Assembly: GCA_002698785.1 (NCBI GenBank)
Contig: PAAG01000029.1
Location: forward strand, 1 to 64,000
DNA length: 64,000 bases
Origin: Verrucomicrobiales bacterium
Lineage (GTDB): Bacteria > Verrucomicrobiota > Verrucomicrobiia > Verrucomicrobiales > DEV007
Direction: 5' to 3'
In this document: positions 10,684 to 64,000 of the stretch, one piece after another
Position numbering within the stretch: position 1 is the first letter of the stretch
Layout: every line of letters starts with the position of its first letter
The notes under the pieces: model-generated
The model's input: only the letters and a program-made list of their open reading frames with translations
What the model was told of the DNA's origin: nothing
The model's database searches: none
Translations under genes and position numbers: made by a program

Positions 10684-11568
10684 TCAATCCTCGATATCGA
10701 GGCGACGCTTGAGACGGGCGACTTCTTTCTCGCCGTCTTCGGAGGGAAGGGCTTCCCAGATGTTCAAATCGCGGAACCCGATCGTTTCACCTGATACGAT
10801 GAAGCCCCACTTCGCTTTCTCTGTTGCAAGCAGCGGATCGCTGCCAAGGCTGATGTGGTCGCCGGTCTGAGCTAGTAGCGTTTCTCCCAGGATCTCCATC
10901 CGGACGGTGTGCCACTCATCGGTTTCGAGTTCTTCCTGAATAGAGTTGAAAGGTTTTCCGACATCGGGACCTTCGTGATCGTTGTCATCTTTCTTTGCCT
11001 GAAAGGAGGTGGGGGTGATGGTGACGCGGCAGACGTGATCCTTCGCGTCGTCTAGACCGAAAGAGGCGCTCTTTCCTGAACCGAGTAGAACATCGAATTC
11101 GATGATGACGTCCTTCAGAGGCATCGCCCGTTTCATGACGGCGGCGTGATCATCTGCGGCGACCTCCGTTCCGGAAACTCCCGCTTCGCTGGCACTCCAG
11201 CTACCCACTGCTGTTCTCCAATCGCTGTCGATCTGTGTGAGGGGAGAAGAGTAGAGAATTTTTCCTGGCGTAGCCATAATTGGCTCCGTCTTGAGCTCTG
11301 GCGCGTTGGCGATTGCGGCCATCTCTTCGCGAGTCTTGTTGGCATACTCCACATCTGCGTCGGACAGAGTGTTCAGGGCTACGGTATATTCTCTGCCGTT
11401 TTCTAATTTCAGAACGACGGAGTCTTCCGTGAAGGAGAGTGCTTCTGCCCGGATCGTGACTCCGGCATTGTTAGTCCAGTCCCGGACCTCTGCGGCGTGC
11501 AGTGATGTGATTCCGTTGAGCCATGCGCAAAGTGCTGCAACAGAGAGGAATGTGGCGAGGTGTTTCAT
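10684..11568 (-). CDS. SHD1-domain exported protein, first paralogue
   Basis: A 294-residue protein with a signal peptide (to about LHAAEV). An SHD1-like module follows (VRDWTNNAGVTIRAE...ENGREYTVALNTLSDADVEYA), then a DUF1080/concanavalin-like domain of about 190 residues and a charged C-terminus. It is clearly homologous along its whole length to the 43397-44242 protein, and its SHD1 part to the C-terminus of the 55519-56130 protein. SHD1 folds resemble an SH3-like barrel and are common on exported PVC proteins; the ligand is unknown. It converges with the propeller gene with no intergenic base. It is probably periplasmic or surface-bound. Confidence 0.75.
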   Translation of the reverse strand: MKHLATFLSVAALCAWLNGITSLHAAEVRDWTNNAGVTIRAEALSFTEDSVVLKLENGREYTVALNTLSDADVEYANKTREEMAAIANAPELKTEPIMATPGKILYSSPLTQIDSDWRTAVGSWSASEAGVSGTEVAADDHAAVMKRAMPLKDVIIEFDVLLGSGKSASFGLDDAKDHVCRVTITPTSFQAKKDDNDHEGPDVGKPFNSIQEELETDEWHTVRMEILGETLLAQTGDHISLGSDPLLATEKAKWGFIVSGETIGFRDLNIWEALPSEDGEKEVARLKRRLDIED

Positions 11569-11621
11569 GATATAGAACGCCGAGCGTAGCGATTCCGATC
11601 GGGAAAGCGAAGCGTTTTTGT

Positions 11622-12155
11622 TTACGTATTTTGTAACCGCTGTTCGAGTTCGGAGCGTTGTTTCGGAGTCTTTCCGAAAAGCCCGTCGATCGAATGAATT
11701 GGCTCGATACCGCTCTGACGAACGCCGAGAAACTCAGCGAGCTGTTTCTCAAAGTGCCGGATGGCTCGCCAGTCTGCCTCGGTATCTTCCAGGTAGTTCA
11801 AACCTCGGTCCAGTAGATCAGCCAGTTCGGGAGCGGGGGCTTCCGGCTCGGACACCTGTTCGATCAGCTTCACAAAATAAGACGCCGCAAGCGTCTGCAG
11901 GTAGTTTCGCCTTAGGCCGAGACGGGGCCGTTCCAAGGTGAGGTCCTTTAAAATATGGAGGTCACCACTTTTTGCTGGGTGAATTTCCACTTCGCAGAAG
12001 TAAAAGAGGTCGAGCTTGCCTGCGAAAGGGCTCTTTGGGCGTCGAGCGCCTTTGGCAACCGTTTTGACGATCCCATTCTCGTGAGTACACCAGTGCACGA
12101 TCAGGCTTGTCTCCGTGAGCGGAGACCGGCGAATCAGGGTGCCTCGTGCTTTCAT
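11622..12155 (-). CDS. recO: DNA repair protein RecO
   Basis: A 177-residue RecO homologue. The N-terminal OB fold is recognisable (MKARGTLIRRSPLTETSLIVHW, then KGARRPKSPFAGKLDLF, a stretch highly typical of RecO), followed by the helical region with RLGLRRNYLQTLAASYFVKLIE. RecO loads RecA onto single-stranded DNA with RecR in gap repair and anneals complementary strands. At 177 residues it is shorter than the usual 230-250, and the cysteine cluster found in many zinc-binding RecO proteins is missing, so it is a compact variant. It is divergent from prfB across a 70-base spacer, which must hold both promoters. Confidence 0.9.
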   Translation of the reverse strand: MKARGTLIRRSPLTETSLIVHWCTHENGIVKTVAKGARRPKSPFAGKLDLFYFCEVEIHPAKSGDLHILKDLTLERPRLGLRRNYLQTLAASYFVKLIEQVSEPEAPAPELADLLDRGLNYLEDTEADWRAIRHFEKQLAEFLGVRQSGIEPIHSIDGLFGKTPKQRSELEQRLQNT

Positions 12156-13357: not shown

Positions 13358-14233
13358 GTGCTGAAGAAAGAGATGAGGAGAATAGGATGCGGACTGGCCC
13401 TTCTCCTGATTTGTCATCTTGCGGTGGCTCAATCTGACAAGGTTGAGCCCTTGGACCGAAAGCCGGTCATTCCCGTGGCGGGTATTGTTGATCAGCGCGA
13501 TTTCCCGGATTCGATCAATGGGTGTGGCCCTGCTTCGATATTGAACCTGCTGAAGTTCAGTGGCCCGGAGTATCTCAGTGCCTATCAGACGATTCTCGGT
13601 CCCGATGAAGGAATACGGATGCGTTCCCTGGTCGACAAGTATTTCAAAAACCGTCCTTCTGTTGTGTATCCAAGCCGGAATCGATGGGGGGTGCACGGAA
13701 TTCATTCGGCGGATCTTGTTTCCGGGCTGAATGAATTTCTAGATGAGAAGGGGATACCCAAGCTGGAGGGACAGTATCTGGATCGTCAGAAAGAGGAGTC
13801 TGCGTCGAATCATTTGAAGAGGTGTCACGATCTGATATCCGCTTCGTTGGATCGAGATGTTTCTCCCATACTCAGCCTGCGATCCTATGTCGTGCAGAGA
13901 AGAAAAGAAGGCGAAGGAGAGAAAGTTGGGTGGGAAACGGGGTATCATCATTATGTAGTCGTCAGGCGCATTAGTAGCCCCTTGCTGGAAACGGGATTCG
14001 AACTTGAGGTGCTTGAGCCTTATCGAGGTAAAAAGACACACATTTATCTTCATCCCGAGTCAAATGGGCAGCCTTTTCGAGCGCTCAAAGGGCTTCTCCA
14101 AAATGGAAAATGGTTGGGTGGTGAGCCCTTCCTTTTGGCACTTGCTCCTGACCTTCCTACCCTGCGTCCCCGGGACGTGACGTGGGAGCACCGATACATT
14201 GTCGTCTCAAATTTCCTGATAGGCGCTTTTTGA
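13358..14233 (+). CDS. exported C39-like cysteine peptidase family protein
   Basis: A 291-residue protein; GTG at 13358 or ATG at 13373 could start it, both giving a signal peptide ending near LAVAQS. A papain-like C39 core is suggested by NGCGPASILNLL (catalytic-type Cys after a Gly-rich turn, about residue 55) and later YHHYVVV (catalytic-type His, about residue 199). The third residue is not clear; EPYRG follows where an Asp or Asn is usual. It may cleave leader peptides or be a structural relative. It is followed 4 bases later by a GspL/PilM-like gene and two more assembly-like genes, so it may process or modify proteins of that system. That link rests on position only. Confidence 0.7.
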   Translation: MLKKEMRRIGCGLALLLICHLAVAQSDKVEPLDRKPVIPVAGIVDQRDFPDSINGCGPASILNLLKFSGPEYLSAYQTILGPDEGIRMRSLVDKYFKNRPSVVYPSRNRWGVHGIHSADLVSGLNEFLDEKGIPKLEGQYLDRQKEESASNHLKRCHDLISASLDRDVSPILSLRSYVVQRRKEGEGEKVGWETGYHHYVVVRRISSPLLETGFELEVLEPYRGKKTHIYLHPESNGQPFRALKGLLQNGKWLGGEPFLLALAPDLPTLRPRDVTWEHRYIVVSNFLIGAF

Positions 14234-14237
14234 AGAC

Positions 14238-15515
14238 TTGATTCTCGGTTGCGAATTCGAAAAACTTTTTCCGAGTTTCGCGGTTTATACCGGAGATCGA
14301 TCAATTTTGAAGGCGAACAACGCAACGATAGTGCCGGCGTCTGACCGGGGGTGGGTCCTTTTCTCTGGTGGAAGGGAGGAGTCCCGTAGCCTGGAAGTAA
14401 CTGGTTTTCCCAAAGGAGCTGTCGTCGGGATCCCTTCTTCCGCTGTTTCTCTCTTCTCTGTCACCCTACCGCCAACGGATGCATCGCTTCACGAGAGCAT
14501 GGTCTTTTCGCAGATCGAGAAACGCGGTTTAGAGAATCGGCAGGGTGAGACTGTTTTCGATTTTCAAAAGGTGGGCACTAACGAAGAAGGGGATGTCTTT
14601 TCCGTTACGGTCGTGGTGCATCTGCCACCTGAACTAGAGATTCCTGGCTCGACCGGGTATGCCCCAGCGGCAGCTCTGCGATCCCACCCGAAGGATGGTC
14701 CCGCAATATGGCTGGAGCAGGGACGCGTTGTGCTGGGAGTGTTTTCTGGTGGCGTCCCGATGCACTTGGAAATCCTATCGGCTTCTGCGGAATCTGGAAA
14801 GGCGATCGCGACAGATGTTAATCTCGCCCTCATGGGGCTCGACGGGCAACCCGAATTTCAACAGGGGATGTCTGACTGTCTGTATGTGGCATCCCCACCG
14901 GTATCGGTAGATGTAGTCGCTGATTTGAAACTGGCCTTGTCGATCCCTGTCGAGATTTATGAAGACGGTGTCGACGGGCAGGGAGACGTAAGGCCAAGGT
15001 TGGAACCCGCTAGTGTGTCGCGAGCGGCTAAGCGGAAGAGGGCTGCTAAAAGAAATGTGGCTTTACTTGTTGCCGGCCTGATCCTTTACGCGGTGGTCAT
15101 TTCCTGGTTATGGATCGAATCGAGAGCGACCAAGTCAGAGATCGAATCGCTCGAGCGGCGAGTTTCCATAGTGGAGCCTGACGTCCAGCATATCCAGATG
15201 ATTGAGGAGAGGTGGAAACAGCTTTCACCCGCCTTCGACAAAGCGAAATTTCCGATCGTACAATTGAGTCGTATTACCTCGGCCCTCCCTGTTAGTGGGG
15301 TGGTTGTTCGCGAGTATCGAACCAATGGGCAGACCGTTCGAATTCGAGGACAGGCGAGGGATGTGCAACTGGCGAACCGCCTCCTGGAAGATCTGAAAGG
15401 AATGGACTTTTTCAAAAGCTACGAGTGGAGCATGCCGAACCCAAAGGTCGAGCAAAACAATACCGCCACTTTCGAAATTGAAGGGAAACCCCGTTATGCG
15501 AGCGCTGACAGTTAG
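14238..15515 (+). CDS. GspL/PilM-PilN-like assembly platform protein
   Basis: About 425 residues; TTG at 14238 is the only plausible start, 4 bases after the previous stop. The first 260 residues resemble the actin-like cytoplasmic domain of GspL/PilM. A basic stretch (KRKRAAKRN) precedes a single membrane helix at about 273-293, then a coiled coil and a ferredoxin-like periplasmic domain with RITSALPVSGVVVREYR...VRIRGQARD, the PilN/GspL pattern. The protein thus combines PilM and PilN functions as GspL does. It overlaps the next gene by 20 bases. No secretion ATPase, secretin or pseudopilin gene lies nearby, so its partners must be elsewhere. Confidence 0.75.
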   Translation: MILGCEFEKLFPSFAVYTGDRSILKANNATIVPASDRGWVLFSGGREESRSLEVTGFPKGAVVGIPSSAVSLFSVTLPPTDASLHESMVFSQIEKRGLENRQGETVFDFQKVGTNEEGDVFSVTVVVHLPPELEIPGSTGYAPAAALRSHPKDGPAIWLEQGRVVLGVFSGGVPMHLEILSASAESGKAIATDVNLALMGLDGQPEFQQGMSDCLYVASPPVSVDVVADLKLALSIPVEIYEDGVDGQGDVRPRLEPASVSRAAKRKRAAKRNVALLVAGLILYAVVISWLWIESRATKSEIESLERRVSIVEPDVQHIQMIEERWKQLSPAFDKAKFPIVQLSRITSALPVSGVVVREYRTNGQTVRIRGQARDVQLANRLLEDLKGMDFFKSYEWSMPNPKVEQNNTATFEIEGKPRYASADS

Positions 15516-46296: not shown

Positions 46297-46593
46297 GTGG
46301 CCCACCTCTCCTTGTATCTGGTAAGAATAATGGCCCTGCTCTCTTTCACTACTAACGCACTTGCTCTTGGCGCGCCCGGCGCTCAGGAGATGGTCGTGAT
46401 CTGTCTTATTTTGGTGCTCAACTTAGGTGGGCTCTTTGCCATGATCTGGGGAATCATCCACGCGGTGAAGAATCCTACCCTGACCGAAAACGAGCGTCTT
46501 ATTGCCATTCTGCTCTGCGTATTGCTCGGCCTTATTGGGGCGCTTATCTACTACTTTGCTCTTCGCAACGGGTCAAAGGGAGAGACCGACTAG
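46297..46593 (+). CDS. small PLDc_N-type membrane protein
   Basis: Up to 98 residues from GTG 46297, or 87 from ATG 46330. Two hydrophobic helices (VVICLILVLNLGGLFAMIWGII, AILLCVLLGLIGALIYYFAL, each quoted in part) separated by a polar turn with the KNPTLTENERLI stretch resemble the phospholipase D-nuclease N-terminal (PLDc_N) module, a two-helix membrane piece found alone in many bacteria. No enzymatic domain is attached. A ten-base C run follows the stop at about 46599-46608. Confidence 0.6.
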   Translation: MAHLSLYLVRIMALLSFTTNALALGAPGAQEMVVICLILVLNLGGLFAMIWGIIHAVKNPTLTENERLIAILLCVLLGLIGALIYYFALRNGSKGETD

Positions 46594-46661: not shown

Positions 46662-46680
46662 TTTCGCGAAGTAATGTCAG
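46662..46680. repeat. 19-bp direct repeat, left copy
   Basis: TTTCGCGAAGTAATGTCAG occurs at 46662-46680 and again, same orientation, at 48783-48801. The two copies bracket the GGDEF gene and its small partner. The motif contains the palindrome TTCGCGAA. It resembles the borders of REP-like or transposon-derived elements, though no transposase is in between. Confidence 0.6.
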
Positions 46681-46712
46681 TTACGGAAGAATCTTTGAAA
46701 AAATCAGCCTCT

Positions 46713-48116
46713 CTAACTGCAAATGACCTGATCTTTCCCGTTTTCTTTGGCTTCATAGAGGGCATTGTCCGCTCGGGCTAAAACTTCTTCCAGAGATTCA
46801 TTCTTCTCAACATCCGTCATTGCAATGCCGATGCTGACGGTTACTCGGGCAACTGATCCGCCTGCAGGCGATACGGATATCGTCTTGGCTTCCTTTTGAA
46901 AGCGGCCAGCCGTTTTGGCGGCCTCATCTATGGACATTCCAGGGAGAAGCACCGCAAACTCTTCGCCCCCGATTCTACCGAAAATGTCTTCCTCTCGGAG
47001 TAGCTCTGAGAAAGCTCCGACCAAGCCAACCAGGACACTGTCTCCCAGGGCATGACCATATTGGTCATTGAGTTGTTTGAAGTCATCAACATCAACCATT
47101 AAGACTGACAGAGGAGTCTTGGAAGATTTGGACTCCATCAGGAGATCTTCTCCACGATCAAAGAATGCTTTGCGGGAAAGAGAGCGCGTGAGATCATCGT
47201 GGGTTGCCGAGTAATGCAGCTTTCTTAGCAGTTCCGTCTTTGCTCTGTTAATGCTCGCTACTGTCAATGGGCCGAGTGCCAGTAGGGTAATGCCGAGGCG
47301 GAGCGATGTCATCGACTGCATGAAATCGTCTTCAAGTGGGATGGGTAGAAACCCAGCCGAAATGGCGATCAATAACCACATACATAGAAGCATTGTCAGG
47401 ACCGCAGAAGTGAATAGCCCATAGCTCAGCGCGCACCAGAGCAACGCTGTTATCGGGATTGCGATTGCTCCCGGACCGCCGATAAGTTCAGTCGCCGCAA
47501 TCGAAGCTAACAAAGCGATAAAAGGTGCTGCGGAACGCCAGCCAATGTCCTCTTTCTGAAAATAAAAGCGCTGTTGCCTTTCATTCGAATATCTGGGAAA
47601 CGTGAACAGGACTGGCAGAATTACGATACTGTTAACCAGTTCGGTAGCAAACCAGAACCAGAAACCCTCTGCCCAGGATTTATCGAAGAGAATGGGTGCC
47701 GTCCCGCTACCAACCGCCGCAGCTGCGAATGCTGCTATAGCGCATACAGTAAGAAGTCTGAGAACAGAGAGGGGATTTTGAAGGTGTAGATCTTTCGCTG
47801 AATGTCTGCGAAACAAAAGCCATCCTGTCAAAGCGCCAGCTACATTGCCCGCCGTCAACCAGGCAGTGGCTAACCATGTGCCGCCTGTAAGCAGGTCGGC
47901 TAAAAAATACCCTACTATTGCGGCGATCCATCCCAAGGGAGTAGCGAGTCGAGGCCAACGGACCATCATCCCGAGAAGGATCGCGTTTGCAGGCCAGAAT
48001 GCGGCGAGAAAATCTAGAGGTCGTGTAAGGATCCCGAAAAGGGATGCCGCGCAGATGATTGCCGCGACGATGAATGCGTCGAAAATACGAAACCAACCTG
48101 TTGGAGTGGAAGGCAT
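46713..48116 (-). CDS. MASE1-GGDEF diguanylate cyclase
   Basis: A 467-residue protein. The N-terminal 280 residues form about eight membrane helices of the MASE1 sensor type (FLAAFWPANAILLGMMVRWP, ATELVNSIVILPVLFTF). The GGDEF domain follows with HDDLTRSLSRKAFFDRGEDLL, DVDDFKQLNDQYGHALGD and active site GGEEF. An RxxD inhibitory site (REED) lies five residues before GGEEF, so cyclic-di-GMP feedback inhibition is likely. It makes c-di-GMP in response to a membrane signal. It is the second gene after the 48127-48501 small protein, with a 10-base gap, and both lie between copies of a 19-bp repeat. Confidence 0.9.
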   Translation of the reverse strand: MPSTPTGWFRIFDAFIVAAIICAASLFGILTRPLDFLAAFWPANAILLGMMVRWPRLATPLGWIAAIVGYFLADLLTGGTWLATAWLTAGNVAGALTGWLLFRRHSAKDLHLQNPLSVLRLLTVCAIAAFAAAAVGSGTAPILFDKSWAEGFWFWFATELVNSIVILPVLFTFPRYSNERQQRFYFQKEDIGWRSAAPFIALLASIAATELIGGPGAIAIPITALLWCALSYGLFTSAVLTMLLCMWLLIAISAGFLPIPLEDDFMQSMTSLRLGITLLALGPLTVASINRAKTELLRKLHYSATHDDLTRSLSRKAFFDRGEDLLMESKSSKTPLSVLMVDVDDFKQLNDQYGHALGDSVLVGLVGAFSELLREEDIFGRIGGEEFAVLLPGMSIDEAAKTAGRFQKEAKTISVSPAGGSVARVTVSIGIAMTDVEKNESLEEVLARADNALYEAKENGKDQVICS

Positions 48117-48126
48117 CGTTTTCTCA

Positions 48127-48501
48127 TTATGATTTGGAATCTAGAGCAAGCAATTTGGCGCGAGCTTCATCAGCGCTGAATCCCGCCGCCTTTAGCATTG
48201 TCATAGCTTTGCCAAAACGGCGCCTGTAGGACTGGCCATTTTCGCTCGAATCCCTTCGATCCTTGCAGACAACCAACATAGTGCTGCCGCATTGGCAGTT
48301 TCTCCAGACTCCAATGCTCTTCTCCCGGAAATGGGAGGTATCACTCAAATCTGTATCACCCTCAACTGGGGTGGTCCCAGTCAAGAACTGCTCCAAATTC
48401 GCGTAGGAGCGGGAGCAGGCACAGGCCTGAGGAAAGTCAGACTCATCGATTACCGTAAGCCCATGGTAACGATTAGAGTGAGATGGAGGAAGATGACTCA
48501 C
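48127..48501 (-). CDS. small cysteine-rich protein paired with the cyclase
   Basis: A 124-residue protein that I do not recognise by name. It has C-x-C (CACSRSYANLEQFLTG), then about 40 residues on C-x-C (WRNCQCGSTMLVVC), giving four or five cysteines in paired form that could hold zinc, iron or haem. The last 30 residues are helical (YRRRFGKAMTMLKAAGFSADEARAKLLAL). No signal peptide or membrane part is seen, so it is cytoplasmic. It lies 10 bases before the GGDEF gene, suggesting that it controls or senses for the cyclase. Coding status is supported by the tight spacing and clean frame. Confidence 0.65.
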   Translation of the reverse strand: MSHLPPSHSNRYHGLTVIDESDFPQACACSRSYANLEQFLTGTTPVEGDTDLSDTSHFREKSIGVWRNCQCGSTMLVVCKDRRDSSENGQSYRRRFGKAMTMLKAAGFSADEARAKLLALDSKS

Positions 48502-48797
48502 AGCAAAAGCGGATCGTAAGAATTACGAGACGCCGAGCATATTGGCAAGTCTATGAGTTTCAATAGGAAACTTGCTTTTCCTGATTTCTAATAGTCGTGA
48601 AAAATGGAGTGAGAGCGGTCAGTGTGGTAATCTTCATGGTTGAGAAGGTGTACGGAAAGACTTGGCCGTCACAAACATGAGAGGGTACTGCTCTTTGGTC
48701 TGGAGCCTGGAGACAAAATTGGGAATTGTGCGAAATACGAGTAGGTCCGAAAAAGGAAAAAAGTCAAAGGTATGGGACGTCCTTTCGCGAAGTAATG
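48502..48797. other. intergenic region, probable promoter area
   Basis: About 296 bases upstream of the small cysteine-rich gene, bounded by the right copy of the 19-bp repeat. No gene or RNA could be supported. The neighbouring minus-strand gene ends inside the repeat. Confidence 0.5.
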
Positions 48798-48801
48798 TCA
48801 G
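48783..48801. repeat. 19-bp direct repeat, right copy
   Basis: Exact second copy of TTTCGCGAAGTAATGTCAG, 2.1 kb from the first. It includes the stop codon (TCA on this strand, 48798-48800) of the 48798-49283 gene, so the C-terminus of that gene may have been set by insertion of the element. Confidence 0.6.
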
Positions 48802-49283
48802 GCACCAGGTTCCTTGGGAACGATGGTAGTGGTACCACCTTTAGCGAGATGTAACACGTGCCCTACTCCGTCTTCAAACGTAATACGGAATACGCCCGTA
48901 GGCCCTGAGAGTCGGATGGATCCGTCGTCATACAGAGACCAGTTACCGCCTCGTGTCCATTCGGTATGGTAGGCTTCTCCGTTCGACTTGAGAACAAGAT
49001 CTCCACCGGATTGCCACGTCCAATAGCGAATCGGGGCAGTGGCATTAGCCGAAGGATTCGCTTCTTCTTTGAGTCGAGTCAGGAGGTTTACGGTCTCCGT
49101 ATCCTCCTTCTCTTTGTATGTTTCGAGAAGGGAATCGAGGTCCGCTTGGTATTGCTTTTCGATTTCTGCGATCTGTTGAGAGTGAGATCGGATCAGGTCT
49201 CGAACTTCTTTTGGAGGCTCTGCTTGAAGCGTCGAAGTGAAAGCGAAAAAGGCAATGGTGCAGAATACAAAGAACAGTCTCAT
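48798..49283 (-). CDS. exported hypothetical protein
   Basis: About 161 residues from ATG 49283; a longer frame to 49346 is ignored because the internal start gives a clear signal peptide (MRLFFVFCTIAFFAFTST, cut near LQAEPP). A coiled-coil stretch (RSHSQQIAEIEKQYQADLDSLLETYKEKEDT) is followed by a short beta-rich domain (RYWTWQSGGDLVLKSNGEAYHTEWTRGGNWSLYDDGSIRL) that looks like a small jelly-roll or SH3-like fold reported in many Verrucomicrobial exported proteins. I cannot assign a function. Its stop lies inside the 19-bp repeat. Confidence 0.65.
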   Translation of the reverse strand: MRLFFVFCTIAFFAFTSTLQAEPPKEVRDLIRSHSQQIAEIEKQYQADLDSLLETYKEKEDTETVNLLTRLKEEANPSANATAPIRYWTWQSGGDLVLKSNGEAYHTEWTRGGNWSLYDDGSIRLSGPTGVFRITFEDGVGHVLHLAKGGTTTIVPKEPGA

Positions 49284-49490
49284 AACACGTGTATATAGTT
49301 TAATTCGCGTTGAGTGTATCAATTTTTCATAAGTAGGTAAATACAAATAATTCGGTAGGGGTATGTAGGTGGTTGGCCGGTCGGTTTTTTTCTTTCGCGA
49401 GACAGAAGTAAAAGGGCGGCAGGCTTTTCCTTCGCCTCTAAGATTTCGGGAAAGGAATTTCGAGGACTATCGTCTGAACCTGCATCGGAA

Positions 49491-49979: not shown

Positions 49980-50110
49980 ATCTCGATCGTTTCGCAGCGC
50001 TATAGCCTGTATAATCTCGACAGGTGGAGTGTGTTTGTGTTAGTATTGGGTGATTCGAATTCTTTTCTGCCTGCGGTTTATGCCCGAAGCCTTAAGTCCG
50101 CGGAATGAGT

Positions 50111-50140
50111 CGAAATGCAGCGAAATGCAGCGAAATGATG
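50111..50140. repeat. 10-bp tandem repeat upstream of sulfatase 1
   Basis: CGAAATGCAG at 50111-50120 and 50121-50130, then CGAAATGATG at 50131-50140. The period of ten bases equals about one helical turn, so a protein bound to each unit would face the same side. Confidence 0.65.
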
Positions 50141-50186
50141 AGGTGTGAAATAATACAAAATGCACATAGAGAACGAGTTAACTCAG

Positions 50187-50227
50187 AAATGATGGGAAAT
50201 CGAAAACTCCATCATTTCCCATCATTT
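50187..50227 (+). promoter_or_regulatory. 14-bp inverted repeat in the sulfatase leader
   Basis: AAATGATGGGAAAT (50187-50200) and ATTTCCCATCATTT (50214-50227) are perfect complements around a 13-base loop, followed by TTG and an A-run. As RNA it makes a stable stem in the leader 79 bases before the sulfatase ATG; as DNA it could be an operator. Terminator or attenuator function is possible since T residues follow the stem. Confidence 0.55.
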
Positions 50228-50305
50228 TTGAAAAACGCGCCAATTGAGGCTCTCTGTTCAATCGCGTCTCTTGCTGCAATCGAGTTCAAGCGATACAAAA
50301 ACGCC

Positions 50306-52810: not shown

Positions 52811-53494
52811 ATGGAAGCCGAAGTAACAAAGACCGATAACTTTTTCGATGACGCAACCTACTGGATTGCACGTAAGATCGTAGACGCACAGAGGGATGGC
52901 GGAATTTTCCGGCTGTCACTCTGCGGAGGATCGACACCGGCTCCCATTTATGAGGCGCTCGCCGCCCGTGAAGATATCGACTGGGAACGCGTGCTGATTA
53001 CCTTCGGTGACGAACGGACGGTGCCTCCGGAAGACGAGCAGAGCAACTACCGCATGGTAAAGGCGAGTCTTCTCGATCCGGCGGGCGTTCCGGCTGCGAA
53101 TGTTATCCGGATGTGCGGAGAATTGGAGCCTGCCGAAGCGGCCGAGCGATGCGAAGGGCAACTGAAGAAGTTGGCGCAAATCGCAGGAGAGGAAATTTTC
53201 GTTCACGACCTGATCCTTCTTGGAATGGGGGATGACGGTCACACCGCTTCTCTTTTTCCAGAGACGGAGGCATTGAAAGAGGAGGAGCGCTGGGTAGTGG
53301 AGAACTTCGTGCCGAAGTTCGACACCTACCGCATCACTTTTACTTACCCGCTCATCAAGGCGGCAAAAGAAGTCTTGTTCCTCGTGAACGGCGCGGCCAA
53401 GCACGAAATGGCGGAAAACGTATTGGCTGGAAAGCCCGAATATCCGTCCAGCGCGATCGAAGCGGAGAAGGTCTTTTGGTTGATAGGTGGTTGA
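52811..53494 (+). CDS. pgl: 6-phosphogluconolactonase
   Basis: A 227-residue protein of the glucosamine-6-phosphate isomerase/6-phosphogluconolactonase family. The CGGSTPAPIYEAL, FGDERTVPPEDEQSNYRMVKASLL and LLGMGDDGHTASLFPET stretches are typical of Pgl; the last motif, with Gly-His-Thr-Ala-Ser, distinguishes Pgl from NagB. It opens 6-phosphogluconolactone in the oxidative pentose phosphate pathway. No zwf or gnd gene is adjacent. It starts at ATG 52811, 55 bases after fabG. Confidence 0.92.
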   Translation: MEAEVTKTDNFFDDATYWIARKIVDAQRDGGIFRLSLCGGSTPAPIYEALAAREDIDWERVLITFGDERTVPPEDEQSNYRMVKASLLDPAGVPAANVIRMCGELEPAEAAERCEGQLKKLAQIAGEEIFVHDLILLGMGDDGHTASLFPETEALKEEERWVVENFVPKFDTYRITFTYPLIKAAKEVLFLVNGAAKHEMAENVLAGKPEYPSSAIEAEKVFWLIGG

Positions 53495-53524
53495 TTTCCT
53501 GTCTAGCATTTGAATAATCGTGCG

Positions 53525-54523
53525 ATGGCTGAGCTTCCGAAAGTTGTCGTCACGGACTATATCGTCGAGCCTCTCGCGTATGAACGAGAGGTGCTCGATG
53601 GGCGCGCCGATGTGGTTGCGCTAGGTGCGACCACACAGGAAGATCTGGCTGCGGGCATAGTCGATGCGGATGCGGTAATGATTTATCATTACCTTTCTCT
53701 CGACGCGAAGACGATCGAATCGTTGAAGAAATGCCAGATCATCGTGAGGCCGGGTGTCGGCTACGACAATATTGATCTTGATGCTGCTAAGCGTGCTGGG
53801 ATTCCGGTATGCAACGTCCCGGACTATGGAACGGAAGAAGTTGCTGATTCCGCTTTAGGTATGGCCATTTCGCTGGCGAGGGAAGTTCACTTTCTGAATC
53901 ATCGCCTGCAGCGCAATGCGAGTGAGCCGTGGTCTGTGGAGGTCGCTGGATCGGTGCCGCGGCTGAGAGGGAGAACCTTTGGTATTGTGGGCTTGGGGCG
54001 TATTGGAACTGCTGCTGCCGTGCGTGCAAAAGCATTCGGTTTCGATGTCGTTTTCTACGATCCCTATATTCCCGATGGTATCGACAAGGCGCTCGGAATA
54101 CGTCGCGCCTTCGATTTGAGTGATTTGCTAGAGCAGGTCAATGTTTTGAGCCTCCATTGTCCGCTGACAGACGAGACACGTGGGATGATCGGTGCTGAGG
54201 AAATTGCAGCGATGCCGGAAGGCGGCATTGTGGTGAATACTGCACGCGGCGGAGTATTGGACACAGCGGCGGCAGTTCGAGCATTGGAAAATGGTCACCT
54301 GAAAGGAGCCGGTATCGACGTCCTCGAAACAGAGCCGCCGAGCGAAAACGACGAGATAGTCGCGGCATGGCGAAATGAAGAGCATCCGGCCCACGACCGC
54401 TTGTTGCTGAATCCCCATTCCGCATTTTTCTGCAACGAAGGCGAGGCAGAGTTCCGCCGCAAAGGTGCCAGGGAAGTGCTTCGTATGCTGAAAGGGGAGC
54501 CATTACGAAATCAGGTGGGCTGA
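53525..54523 (+). CDS. D-isomer-specific 2-hydroxyacid dehydrogenase (CtBP-like)
   Basis: About 332 residues from ATG 53525. The fold shows a split catalytic domain around a Rossmann domain with GIVGLGRIGTAAAVRAKAFGFDVVFYDPY, VNTARGGVLDTAAAVRAL with the catalytic Arg, the Glu in LETEPP and the His in NPHSAFFCNEG. The C-terminal-binding-protein subgroup is suggested by VRPGVGYDNIDLDAAKRAGIPVCNVPDYGTEEVADSAL. It likely reduces or oxidises a 2-keto/2-hydroxy acid with NAD(H); substrate unknown. It begins 30 bases after pgl. Confidence 0.88.
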   Translation: MAELPKVVVTDYIVEPLAYEREVLDGRADVVALGATTQEDLAAGIVDADAVMIYHYLSLDAKTIESLKKCQIIVRPGVGYDNIDLDAAKRAGIPVCNVPDYGTEEVADSALGMAISLAREVHFLNHRLQRNASEPWSVEVAGSVPRLRGRTFGIVGLGRIGTAAAVRAKAFGFDVVFYDPYIPDGIDKALGIRRAFDLSDLLEQVNVLSLHCPLTDETRGMIGAEEIAAMPEGGIVVNTARGGVLDTAAAVRALENGHLKGAGIDVLETEPPSENDEIVAAWRNEEHPAHDRLLLNPHSAFFCNEGEAEFRRKGAREVLRMLKGEPLRNQVG

Positions 54524-54583: not shown

Positions 54584-55510
54584 ATGTTTACGCTTCGCAC
54601 GATGGTGGCATCGGATTTCGATTCGGTGGCTGAGTTGATTTTCCTTTCTACGAATTCGTGGTACCAGCACCGGCTGGGACGTTCAGTATTCCAATGCAAA
54701 CCGCAGGACTGCCGTCTCTTCTGCGAGGTGTATGAGGATCTCGATGAAGGGTGCGGAATCGTGATGGAGCATAACAAAACCGGGATGCTCGCTGCTTCAT
54801 GTTTCTATCATCCTAGAGAGACACATGTGTCTCTCGGCATCATGAACGTGCACCCCAACTATTTCGGGCACGGATTAGCCGGACAGCTATTGAAGGAGAT
54901 CATTCTTTACGCAGAAGGGAAAGACCTTCCTGTCCGATTGGTTTCAAGCGCTCTGAACCTCGACTCGTTTTCGCTCTACAACCGATTCGGGTTCAGCCCT
55001 CATGGGGTGTATCAGGATATGATCCTGTCTGTACCCAGGAAGGGAGTGGCTGTGGAAGAAAATCGCGAGTTGCCGAAGGTGAGGGAAGCTACACCCAACG
55101 ACCTCGTTGCGATGGGAACAGTGGAGTTTGATGTGAGTGGTATCTCCCGTGAGAATGACTACTGTTATTTTATTGAGAACAGTTCAGGTATCTGGCACAC
55201 GCTGGTTTCTTTGGATGAAGAAGGGGACGTTGACGGATTTCTCGTATCACTTCGTCATCCTGCATCGCACATGATTGGGCCCGGTGTAGCGAAGAATTCC
55301 AAGGCGGCAGAAGCCTTGTTGCTGGCTCAGTTGGAGAGGTTCTGTGGGGAAACAGTAGTCTTTCTGGTCCCCTCAACAGAGCGAGAGTTGATCGATGCCG
55401 CCTACAGTTGGGGTGCACGAAACTGTGAAATCCATTTCGCCCAGGTACGTGGGGAAGCTCAGCCCGTCAACGGGATCGTGATGCCTACGTTTCTTCCAGA
55501 GTCCGGATAA
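54584..55510 (+). CDS. double GNAT acetyltransferase
   Basis: A 308-residue protein with a GNAT domain in the first half (LGIMNVHPNYFGHGLAGQLLKEIILYAEGKDLPVRLVSSALNLDSFSLYNRFGF, in which the acyl-CoA-binding GHGLAG loop is visible). The second half (about 165-308) lacks a clear acetyl-CoA motif and looks like a degenerate second GNAT domain with AKNSKAAEALLLAQLERF. Acetylates an unknown amine. It is followed convergently by the cytochrome-SHD1 gene, 8 bases away. Confidence 0.8.
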   Translation: MFTLRTMVASDFDSVAELIFLSTNSWYQHRLGRSVFQCKPQDCRLFCEVYEDLDEGCGIVMEHNKTGMLAASCFYHPRETHVSLGIMNVHPNYFGHGLAGQLLKEIILYAEGKDLPVRLVSSALNLDSFSLYNRFGFSPHGVYQDMILSVPRKGVAVEENRELPKVREATPNDLVAMGTVEFDVSGISRENDYCYFIENSSGIWHTLVSLDEEGDVDGFLVSLRHPASHMIGPGVAKNSKAAEALLLAQLERFCGETVVFLVPSTERELIDAAYSWGARNCEIHFAQVRGEAQPVNGIVMPTFLPESG

Positions 55511-61100: not shown

Positions 61101-64000
61101 ACCTACCTTCCAAATGCCCTCGCAGGCTACCACGATATTCCGGATAGCTCTGCATCGGGAGACATCACTGTTTTCGCAGGCGGCACTTTCAGCTACAACG
61201 ATATCGGAGATCCAGGACCAGGGGTTGACCCGCTTCTCGCGCCGGGAACGATGCGGGACGTGGGTATTCAAATTCAGGCGGGCAATGGCCAATATTCTTA
61301 CGGCATGATCGGTCACGGCGGAGACCAGCAATTCATCAATACCGCCCTTACTTCGGGATATCTGAATACGATCGACGCGGATGAAGTCCAGAGCGGTTTG
61401 CGTGGTGATATTACCGTCACAGCAGATCAGGGAACTTTCTTTGCTCAGGGTGGCGAAGAGCGCAGGCAGGACTCACTGGACGGATATGGTTTCAACTTCG
61501 TCCAAGTTGGTCACGGAGGATACAACATCGATGCGGGCCACGAGGAGAATGACGGTGGTCGTGATCGGAACGACATTCAGATTTTCGAAGGAAACGTCAC
61601 CGTATCCGCGGGGCAGGATTCCCTCGGCACCGGCAATGTGAATGAAGGAGCGATTGTTTTCCGTTCCGGTCGGATGCGTTTTGGATACGGGCAGATTGGT
61701 CACGGAGGTGGTAACACCGAGGGAGCCGTCGCCGGTGATGGGACCTCACATATTTTTGTGACAGCTAGGGATGAAATCGAGTTCACCTCCCGCATCTCTG
61801 CTCCGAGGGATCCTTTCCTTTCACTCGATTTCGTTACCGACCGAGTCATTGATGACTCTCTTTTGCAGGGATATACAGGAGCGACAAATGGAGCCGATAC
61901 GGGGGACCAATGGGAGCGTTACCTGGGTTCTGGCCAGACTTACCGGCCTCAGTCCGTCCAATACAACTACGAGTGGGAGACTAATGCGAAATACATGAAG
62001 ATTGGTCACGGTGGATACAACTCTTCCGAGCACAACCAGTCCCGCGACTTCTCACGCAACAACACGATTACCGTTATTGCCGGCACCGGGGAAAACGGCG
62101 CCAATGATAACGATGACTCAACTGGTGGTGTTTACTTCAAAGGTGGGGATGATACCGCCGACTTTATCCAGATCGGTCATGGTGGCTGGGATAATGGTCA
62201 CGATGGAAATGTGATCGGAGGTGATATCACGATTTTGGCGAATGGTTCGGTTGTGATGGATGCATCTGACGGCGGCACAGCGGGCTACACTCGCTCGACT
62301 GTTTTTGGTGGTGTGACCAGAGATGAGTTCGGAAACATCATCGAGGCTGGCCACCGTGCCTTCGGCGGTCAGGGACAGGAGTCCTTCGCCATGATTGGTA
62401 ACGGTGGCTACAACATGGATGGTGACTTTGATGGTGAGATCACCATTGTGGCCGTTGGTAATGGAAGCAGCATTATTGGGCTGGGGCCAGTTACAAATAC
62501 CGACATCATCTCAGTGAATGATTGGATTGGCCCTTATGTGGAAGAATCCAGCTCGTCGACGCTTCAGTTAGGGAATATTCACACCCTTTCGGCATTGCAG
62601 GAAGCTTCCATGCAGACACGTGGATTTACTCTGTATCACGGTGCTGGTAATGCCACCTCCAATGGTGGTTTCCTCGACGATGATAATTCTGGCCGAATTG
62701 TGGAAGGATCGTTTGCCTGGGATGTCGACAATGGTGACTTGGTTGATAATCCGTCCGGTGATCCAGATCCGGATATCGGAACCATCGTTGGGGTCAATGG
62801 ATCGTTGAATGGACAGACTGTTGGGCGCATCAATTACGCAACTGGTGAGATCACTATTGATGGAACACTTGTTACCTCTCAGGGAGCTATCGGTCAGGTC
62901 GAGGATCGTGACGATCGCTACAACCGGAACATCGATTACCAGTATGCCGCAACCAACGGGGGAACGTTTACCATTTCTGACGAACGCACTGCTGCCTCGG
63001 ATACTGCATTGAAACCGAATACGGCATGGCTTGGAGCTTCAGGTATTGTTCCGGGATCTGTTTCGATCGTCGTTGATGCAAACAACGATGGTAGTGGAAC
63101 CATCGTATTGACGGACAATCTTGGCGATGGACAGCTTCGGGATTCGCTTGGAAATCGTATTGCTGATGTCAACTACGACACAGGTAAGATCCTGTTCCGT
63201 AGCGCAATCAACCCGAGTGGAGACGAAGTCGTTGCGAACTATCAATACACGGAAGGAAATGCCGACAGGGCATTTGTCCAGATTGGTAACGGTGGATATG
63301 CTTCAGGCCGTGGCGGTCCGAATTCGGCGGGCAACTTTGGCGAGATTAACCTGAGTGCTGACGGAGATATTCGAGTCCACGGAGGTTCTTACGACAACGC
63401 TTATGCCCAAATTGGCCACGGTGGTTATTCGACCCAGAGTTATCACGGGGTTCAGACCGATCAGATTGACAACGTGAATCCCGATCTCACATTCGGTGGT
63501 GATACTTCAGGGGACATCAACGTTTCGGCAGGCGGAATTCTTGAGTTGTTGTCAGGGCGGGGACTCTCCTACTACGACAATGCTCAGTATTCGCAGCTAG
63601 GTCTGGGTGGATATGAAGCAGAAGGCAATCATCAGGGCAATATTTACGTCACTTCCGGATCGGGAGAGATCAGCCTGGCACCTGGAGCGGTTGGCGGCAG
63701 CGGCCTTATCGGTGGCATTGTCTTTTCTGCAGGGCAAGGTTCAGACGCATACACTCAACTGGGCCACGGAGGATATAGTGCACAATCCGCAAGAGAGGAT
63801 GGGTTCTCCGGGATACGCGGGCTCTACGGTAATATCGAGGTCGAAACTGATGGCGATGTTTCGTTTACGTCGGGGACTTTGTTAGACAATGGTCGCAATC
63901 TGGATGACGGACGCCTTTACAGTCAACTCGGTCATGGTGGCTACGACGTCGATATCCGAAACGACGGAAATAATGACCAGCGCTACATCGGTATTGGTCA
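58137..64000 (+). CDS. FhaB-like two-partner-secretion exoprotein, 5' part
   Basis: The frame is open from ATG 58137 to the window end, so at least 1954 residues are seen and the 3' end is missing. A long basic signal peptide (to about PVRANP) is followed by a TPS domain: QIVQNSRNAVIDWDSFSID, TQFRQPGANSAVLNRVTGG, NGNVFVINPNGILVG and GLVLSTLDVS, the classical haemagglutinin-activation motifs including NPNGI. Then come beta-helix repeats. From about residue 750 the motif [QMKR]-[IVL]-G-[HN]-G-G recurs at 60396 through 63927. The partner TpsB transporter is not in the window. The function, adhesin, toxin or matrix protein, cannot be told without the C-terminus. Confidence 0.92.
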   Translation, partial: MRKSPLHRGSLCGSLRRAIRLQVVVTTLLAPGLSIWTVPVRANPRGGIVVHGDVNIGPNRGGNLQIVQNSRNAVIDWDSFSIDAGELTQFRQPGANSAVLNRVTGGDPSAIHGALRANGNVFVINPNGILVGAGGTIDVHGLVLSTLDVSNGEFLAGGDMVFSGDSNSGGITNMGRINAIGGDVFLIGRTISNSGSITATGTVGLAAGEEVLLSADSKAGERMFVRAKGAGVSGTGIYNDGTIEGAAVELKAHGNMFALAINNKGSIRATGATTSGGRVFLRGAGGSVSNGGSIRASAPSIGSGGRVLIEAAYAKVDGMIRAESADVKVAATEAIELDGEIDVSSEVGRGGNVILESDDITLSSTSSVNVSGYSGGGSVQIGGGFQGKNEDITNAKTLYVAEGSEIYADALDFGNGGAVILWSDETTFFAGDIYARGAGGGRGGFAEVSGKKDLGYHGYVDLTSDHGLSGTLLLDPTDVTISSAATSFDNVNNVDLSNTLDAGTNVIITTNIGGTDRGDITVEDRVEWYSDSAGTDPGDLYLLATGDIYFNRSVRSAGTGSVNAVAGWNGVTGVNLGDLGSGVINEDVAFDMDAIFATLPGGANEGDADAAGLNDGSIFINQTNTPVDRQVNVGSRFGDTRLAGHDLIMKGNNTGGNRWAQIGFNDTGYEYENGNTINGVHSEWWGSDAAADGTGFTTTDAVTGKNYIDLLGGTRLSGGEFDGAGSGATGNIDIGLSGRLDMRTGDDNRSFVQIGHGGSVVPEPTRSNNTAVTRDGIIMDSANNGRAFFSTTWRTNLEADPYRGSQYMVDGDITINVGEEALVMAAPAFDGNNSDLVNTDGSDGMYARIGHGGSRNHGSFHGDITMNVFGADSDGVGLELRAGRGTRRGAYIGHGSDSDGNRTNIFDQTRSGNITVNVTSGAIRMLGYNQLPRVGDDNTGTIVAADEVLPTEGTANRYYYSPVQIGHGGAMREQGTEDGDDGFFADNPTYLPNALAGYHDIPDSSASGDITVFAGGTFSYNDIGDPGPGVDPLLAPGTMRDVGIQIQAGNGQYSYGMIGHGGDQQFINTALTSGYLNTIDADEVQSGLRGDITVTADQGTFFAQGGEERRQDSLDGYGFNFVQVGHGGYNIDAGHEENDGGRDRNDIQIFEGNVTVSAGQDSLGTGNVNEGAIVFRSGRMRFGYGQIGHGGGNTEGAVAGDGTSHIFVTARDEIEFTSRISAPRDPFLSLDFVTDRVIDDSLLQGYTGATNGADTGDQWERYLGSGQTYRPQSVQYNYEWETNAKYMKIGHGGYNSSEHNQSRDFSRNNTITVIAGTGENGANDNDDSTGGVYFKGGDDTADFIQIGHGGWDNGHDGNVIGGDITILANGSVVMDASDGGTAGYTRSTVFGGVTRDEFGNIIEAGHRAFGGQGQESFAMIGNGGYNMDGDFDGEITIVAVGNGSSIIGLGPVTNTDIISVNDWIGPYVEESSSSTLQLGNIHTLSALQEASMQTRGFTLYHGAGNATSNGGFLDDDNSGRIVEGSFAWDVDNGDLVDNPSGDPDPDIGTIVGVNGSLNGQTVGRINYATGEITIDGTLVTSQGAIGQVEDRDDRYNRNIDYQYAATNGGTFTISDERTAASDTALKPNTAWLGASGIVPGSVSIVVDANNDGSGTIVLTDNLGDGQLRDSLGNRIADVNYDTGKILFRSAINPSGDEVVANYQYTEGNADRAFVQIGNGGYASGRGGPNSAGNFGEINLSADGDIRVHGGSYDNAYAQIGHGGYSTQSYHGVQTDQIDNVNPDLTFGGDTSGDINVSAGGILELLSGRGLSYYDNAQYSQLGLGGYEAEGNHQGNIYVTSGSGEISLAPGAVGGSGLIGGIVFSAGQGSDAYTQLGHGGYSAQSAREDGFSGIRGLYGNIEVETDGDVSFTSGTLLDNGRNLDDGRLYSQLGHGGYDVDIRNDGNNDQRYIGIG
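60390..63998 (+). repeat. IGHGG-motif protein repeats
   Basis: Within the exoprotein, the motif starts (codon of I/V/L) at 60396, 60681, 60810, 61029, 61308, 61506, 61695, 62001, 62172, 62394, 63282, 63411, 63597, 63759 and 63927, with a cut-off copy at 63987. Typical forms are QIGHGGY, MIGHGG, KIGHGGYN, QLGHGGYS; variants are IGNGG and LGLGG. Between motifs lie 129-306 bases containing a GDITV/GNIxV strand. A stretch of 888 bases (62394-63282) lacks it. Confidence 0.85.

Follow-up and report, generated by a model that had tools for sequence, protein, structure and literature searches.

Two exact copies of a 19-bp direct repeat, TTTCGCGAAGTAATGTCAG, bracket a two-gene unit in the genome of a Verrucomicrobiales bacterium, in which a small Cys-rich protein and a diguanylate cyclase (DGC) are encoded, and the pair is best explained, if tentatively, as the short direct-repeat scar of an illegitimate recombination, which is a known kind of structure. 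The pair is unique in the genome and has sharp ends, and no transposition machinery accompanies the two genes between its copies. The presence of the 19-mers is confirmed, and chance would seldom give such a pair; what they resemble, however, is an ordinary scar of short repeats, or else a coincidence, and not the ends of a mobile cassette. The case is chiefly of use for calibration: a striking exact pair of repeats on either side of an operon was weighed by counting it across the genome, by taking inverted pairs as a control, and by way of a relative in which the operon is present and the repeats are not.

The repeats and the operon between them

The features of the locus are listed in Table 1, where positions refer to the window, i.e. 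the whole 64-kb stretch of DNA that was analysed.

Table 1. Features at and around the bracketed operon
Feature	Position	Strand	Remarks
98-aa ORF, left neighbour	46297..46593	+	long hydrophobic stretches; convergent with DGC
Left repeat, TTTCGCGAAGTAATGTCAG (19 bp, direct)	46662..46680	+	exact match
Diguanylate cyclase (DGC), 467 aa	46713..48116	-	MASE1 membrane domain (PF05231, 5.4e-11) and GGDEF domain (PF00990, 4.6e-40)
Small Cys-rich protein (CxC...CxC), 124 aa	48127..48501	-	unnamed family; ORF 10 nt upstream of the DGC start
Spacer from right repeat to unit	48502..48782	.	281 nt; presumed promoter and leader
Right repeat, TTTCGCGAAGTAATGTCAG (19 bp, direct)	48783..48801	+	exact match
182-aa ORF, right neighbour	48798..49346	-	probable start 49283 (161 aa); predicted secreted (by eye)
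REP-like palindromic cluster AAATGATGGGAAAT ... ATTTCCCATCATTT, plus CGAAATGCAGCGAAATGCAGCGAAATGATGAGG	50103..50235	.	matches the motif beside L052; separate from the 19-bp pair

As the earlier note had described, the two identical 19-mers stand in the same orientation on both sides of the two-gene unit; their starts are 2,121 bp apart. Read along the - strand, the 182-aa ORF is followed by the 281-nt spacer that separates the right repeat from the start of the Cys-rich ORF, then, in the same direction and after a gap of 10 nt, by the DGC, and 32 nt beyond the DGC stop by the left repeat, which in turn lies 68 nt past the 98-aa gene. The right copy holds the TGA with which the 182-aa gene of the - strand ends, in agreement with the earlier claim that it supplies the stop of the neighbouring gene. 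No further copy with up to 3 mismatches occurs in the window (100 shuffles searched in the same way gave a mean of 0.03 copies and a maximum of 1), and the genome-wide count that had been proposed as a check returned just the two copies in all 7,015,219 bp at up to 2 mismatches. For the inner 13-mer, GAAGTAATGTCAG, the genome-wide count is two as well. The ends of the repeat are sharp, the 40-bp flanks on either side being 0.28 and 0.25 identical. TTTCGCGAAGTAATGTCAG includes an 8-bp palindrome, TTCGCGAA, and the sequence running on from the right copy is GCACCAGGTTCC.

The cyclase belongs to the MASE1-GGDEF type, as it combines the MASE1 domain with a GGDEF domain that carries the GG[DE]EF signature (GGEEF at residue 383), and an RxxD motif (REED) lies upstream. 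Both motifs are intact, and the DGC is therefore likely an active, product-inhibited enzyme, as judged from these residues. The unit would make c-di-GMP at the membrane, and the partner with its CxC/CxC arrangement, which is putatively metal-binding, may modulate the DGC. MASE1 and GGDEF domains are also combined in DgcE of E. coli, which has an N-terminal MASE1 domain and acts together with the partner proteins RdcA, a GTPase, and RdcB (PMC6510439). Unlike DgcE, the DGC of the window has no PAS or EAL domains, and its candidate partner is an unrelated small 4-Cys protein. A search of the spacer for a sigma-70-like promoter gave only a weak match (48563-48536, - strand), no better than in shuffles.

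In synonymous codon usage, the DGC is found at the 2.6th percentile of 1,406 genes (z -5.0), the Cys-rich gene at the 10th and the 182-aa gene at the 12th, and the GC3 of the latter, which is patchy in the genus, is at the 1.5th percentile. The two-gene unit looks compositionally atypical, and this oddness continues past the right repeat. With the 182-aa gene just as odd on the outer side, the bracket marks no clean compositional boundary.

Frequency of comparable repeat pairs

Maximal exact pairs of at least 14 bp were counted in a sample of 2.04 Mb of the same genome. For exact direct pairs of at least 19 bp that are 300-5,000 bp apart, the random expectation amounts to 0.038 for the sample, 0.131 for the whole genome, and 0.0012 for 64 kb; with a coding density of about 0.88, a pair with both copies in intergenic DNA is roughly 70-fold rarer, about 0.002 per genome. 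The inverted-pair control at 14-16 bp matches the random expectation. Direct pairs far exceed inverted pairs in the sample (at least 14 bp), and the long ones lie nearly all in repetitive coding sequence or longer repeats, the sources being a giant ORF (58098-84767) and a few regions of contigs C2 and C50 that resemble repeat proteins or belong to longer repeats. The giant ORF (8,890 aa, 26.7 kb) runs from 58098 to the end of the window at 64000 and on to contig position 84767; it carries a TPS two-partner secretion domain at its N-terminus along with numerous IGHGG-like repeats, and many of the contig's long direct repeats fall within it.

Intergenic direct pairs of at least 15 bp number nine in the 2.04 Mb, and the 19-mer pair is the only intergenic one of at least 16 bp and 300-5,000 bp apart that falls outside the excluded classes, which were assigned by eye (longer repeat, palindrome, local repeat cluster, probable tRNA-type repeat). 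The pair is unusual for its genome. At 0.0012 per window, however, a scan over many windows is expected to meet some such pairs, so that "very unlikely by chance", as the earlier note put it, holds for a single window and only moderately so across a many-window scan.

Insertion scar or coincidence

At high identity (61%), the DGC occurs in one of 33 other genomes of the genus, G033 (Akkermansiaceae), where a Cys-rich gene 53-55% identical to that of the window adjoins it. There the two genes stand in a different genomic setting and lack the bracketing repeats, and the repeats are thus not part of the unit. The earlier note had suggested that the unit was inserted or mobilised as a module, and it had named in advance relatives that keep the unit without the repeats as the finding that would refute this. 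What stands of its interpretation is a real and genome-unique pair around a co-directional unit with atypical DGC codons and a patchy occurrence; mobilisation as a module is not supported, and at the unit there is also no transposase, integrase, terminal inverted repeat or tRNA. By itself, the finding in G033 would still leave room for an insertion scar in the present lineage.

According to this preferred reading, illegitimate recombination, by short homology or at a staggered break, would have placed the operon together with its upstream spacer between the 182-aa and 98-aa genes, the pair and the unit presumably arriving in one event, which was probably an insertion rather than a duplication. 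Removing the unit and one repeat copy in silico leaves the 98-aa and 182-aa genes as a convergent pair, separated by a spacer of 83 nt; as a model, the ancestral site would have been this spacer with one copy of the 19-mer, joining ...AATACGCTGA and GCACCAGGTTCC... in its unit-free form. The repeats may now be inert, beyond permitting a rare deletion of 2.1 kb.

Such scars have been described in E. coli, S. aureus and S. pyogenes, where direct repeats border 10-18% of the small variable segments, the repeats being shorter than 30 bp in 66-94% of these, and where the authors name replication slippage or short-homology illegitimate recombination as the cause (PMC2884548). As this survey takes repeats from 5 bp upward, an exact repeat of 19 bp need not be typical of them (PMC2884548). 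Like these segments, the one studied here is short, bears genes, has direct repeats of less than 30 bp at both ends (19 bp, exact, with sharp ends), and carries no transposase or integrase; the variability of the published segments was shown by alignment of strains of the same species, whereas here no empty or alternative site was found.

This failure to find an empty site goes back to the loss of synteny around the locus. The search was anchored on the glyoxalase, FabG, 98-aa and 182-aa genes, around which gene order is not conserved, and none of the relatives examined keeps both flanks; the glyoxalase orthologs (77%, five relatives) and the FabG orthologs (81-83%, five genomes) have different neighbours upstream. 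In the window, a 6-phosphogluconolactonase-like and a dehydrogenase-like gene (52811-54523) stand between FabG (52009) and the gene at 54584, whereas in the relatives G004, G007 and G024 the orthologs of the genes at 54584, 55519 and 56277 come directly after FabG.

For the scar speak the two copies in 7.0 Mb with their sharp ends, the chance expectation of 0.13 pairs per genome, or about 0.002 with both copies intergenic, the 83-nt convergent spacer of the collapsed site, the atypical codon usage of the DGC, and the occurrence of the unit in one of 33 genomes of the genus in another setting. Against it count the missing empty site, the equally odd 182-aa gene, and the expectation of such a pair in a scan of many windows. 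The last two points belong also to the main rival, a possible but less probable one, according to which two unrelated intergenic 19-mers match by chance on either side of the operon. An expectation of 0.13 per 7-Mb genome applies to pairs at any location, the inverted-pair control at 14-16 bp agrees with the random one, and G033 keeps the unit without the repeats, all of which fits a coincidence. What a coincidence has to accept is that both copies are intergenic or overlap a stop and bracket exactly one operon, an arrangement that is the roughly 70-fold rarer one, though judged so after the fact.

Mobile elements, functional sites and the Cys-rich family

All other explanations are less likely than a scar or a coincidence. 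Between the repeats, the DGC and the Cys-rich protein are the only ORFs of note, and no gene for a transposase or an integrase was found within the unit or next to it. Terminal inverted repeats are lacking at the inner ends of both 19-mers, so that a transposon with target-site duplication is not what is seen here, and no tyrosine or serine recombinase gene is present as it would be in an att element. The window has no tRNA, the unit and the repeats have no match in Rfam, no plasmid resembles the unit, and the 19-mer was not found in 2.9 million viral contigs of IMG/VR; an origin from a phage or plasmid was rejected on these last two results. An integron-type attC was not seen on reading the sequence. 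Elsewhere in the same genome (C50:62997-66742), a 28-nt exact inverted pair with sharp ends, 3.7 kb apart, possibly represents the ends of a transposon.

Integrated elements usually have identical direct repeats at their ends, one of them overlapping the 3' end of a gene. This layout is what the pair shows, and the 19-mer could accordingly be read as an att core at the 3' end of the 182-aa gene, the unit being a minimal or decayed element the integrase of which has been lost or lies elsewhere. Such a site-specific integration is unlikely, as besides the lack of an integrase in or beside the unit and of any tRNA, viral or plasmid link, the genome holds no other copy or related att-like site, and in 57 genomes only scattered matches with 2 mismatches occur, one each in G006, G020 and G038.

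Quite unlikely, too, is a shared role of the two copies as one regulatory or 3'-end element, for instance a protein-binding site, downstream of two genes on the - strand. Each copy does lie at or just beyond the 3' end of such a gene (the DGC and the 182-aa gene), and the 19-mer contains the palindrome TTCGCGAA, but a third copy is absent from 7 Mb even at 2 mismatches, the RNA folds around the copies do not surpass those of shuffles (z +1.05 and -0.82), nothing in Rfam matches, a terminator-like site is found in neither copy, and G033 has no such repeat.

A mis-join at the 19-mer during assembly is conceivable in a draft of 60 contigs with 95.9% completeness and 4.97% contamination, yet it would still require a 19-mer shared by the joined ends, and the gene pair recurs in the independent assembly of G033, which makes it very unlikely. 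Just as little weight is given to the idea of a site-specific or template-driven insertion system that has the 19-mer as its core and lacks a known recombinase in the vicinity, and in which the DGC and the 4-Cys protein would be a cargo cassette moving between loci of Akkermansiaceae.

The earlier note had finally pointed to RAYT-type transposases. Five RAYT-like genes are indeed present in the genome (PF01797, Y1_Tnp), all away from the locus, and like the REPINs and RAYT-associated REP elements the 19-mer is short, repeated and intergenic; the continuation of the right copy, GCACCAGGTTCC, also recalls REP-like words. REPs, however, are multi-copy elements with paired palindromic units, the motif of which also flanks the RAYT gene, whereas the 19-mer is present twice, with no third copy, and is absent from the flanks of all five genes. 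Extended to the right, the word of the right copy is found a single time in its own genome; among 387 other members of the phylum it turned up in 11, each time as a scattered single match with 2 mismatches. One of the RAYT-like genes, L052, adjoins a palindrome of a different type, AAATGATGGGAAA, which has 76 matches in 2.04 Mb at up to 2 mismatches vs 10 for the reversed control, and 38 vs 0 in intergenic DNA. A palindrome of this type also stands in the window at 50103-50235, and the true REP-like element of the neighbourhood, some 1.3 kb rightward of the right repeat, thus differs in sequence from the 19-mer. A mobilisation of the unit by RAYT/REP is therefore extremely unlikely and was rejected on copy number, RAYT flanks and motif.

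The Cys-rich protein is matched by no model of Pfam or NCBIfam. Its AlphaFold model (pLDDT 77.6, pTM 0.60) has no fold match in the PDB at E 0.001 or better, and a sequence search of the PDB gave no convincing relative. The family to which it belongs (48127-48501; loci L058-L062 and L021) has a conserved [N/T]CxC...RR motif and is patchy across the phylum, and in distant relatives CxxC replaces CxC. Among 388 genomes sampled in the phylum, five distant homologs were found in four genomes, the one of the window excluded; no GGDEF gene lies within about 1.5 kb of any of these five, and a family-wide conserved linkage to a DGC was rejected. A by-product of possible interest is thus an uncharacterised 4-Cys family that in two Akkermansiaceae genomes is encoded directly upstream of a membrane DGC. 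At the G033 locus (L021), a perfect 24-nt inverted repeat, ATTTGAAATTGGTTCCCTGACCCG, the copies of which are 340 nt apart (about 11503-11890), lies about 1.6 kb from the Cys-rich/DGC unit, and the ORF at 13431-14834 looks by eye like a RAYT-type transposase.
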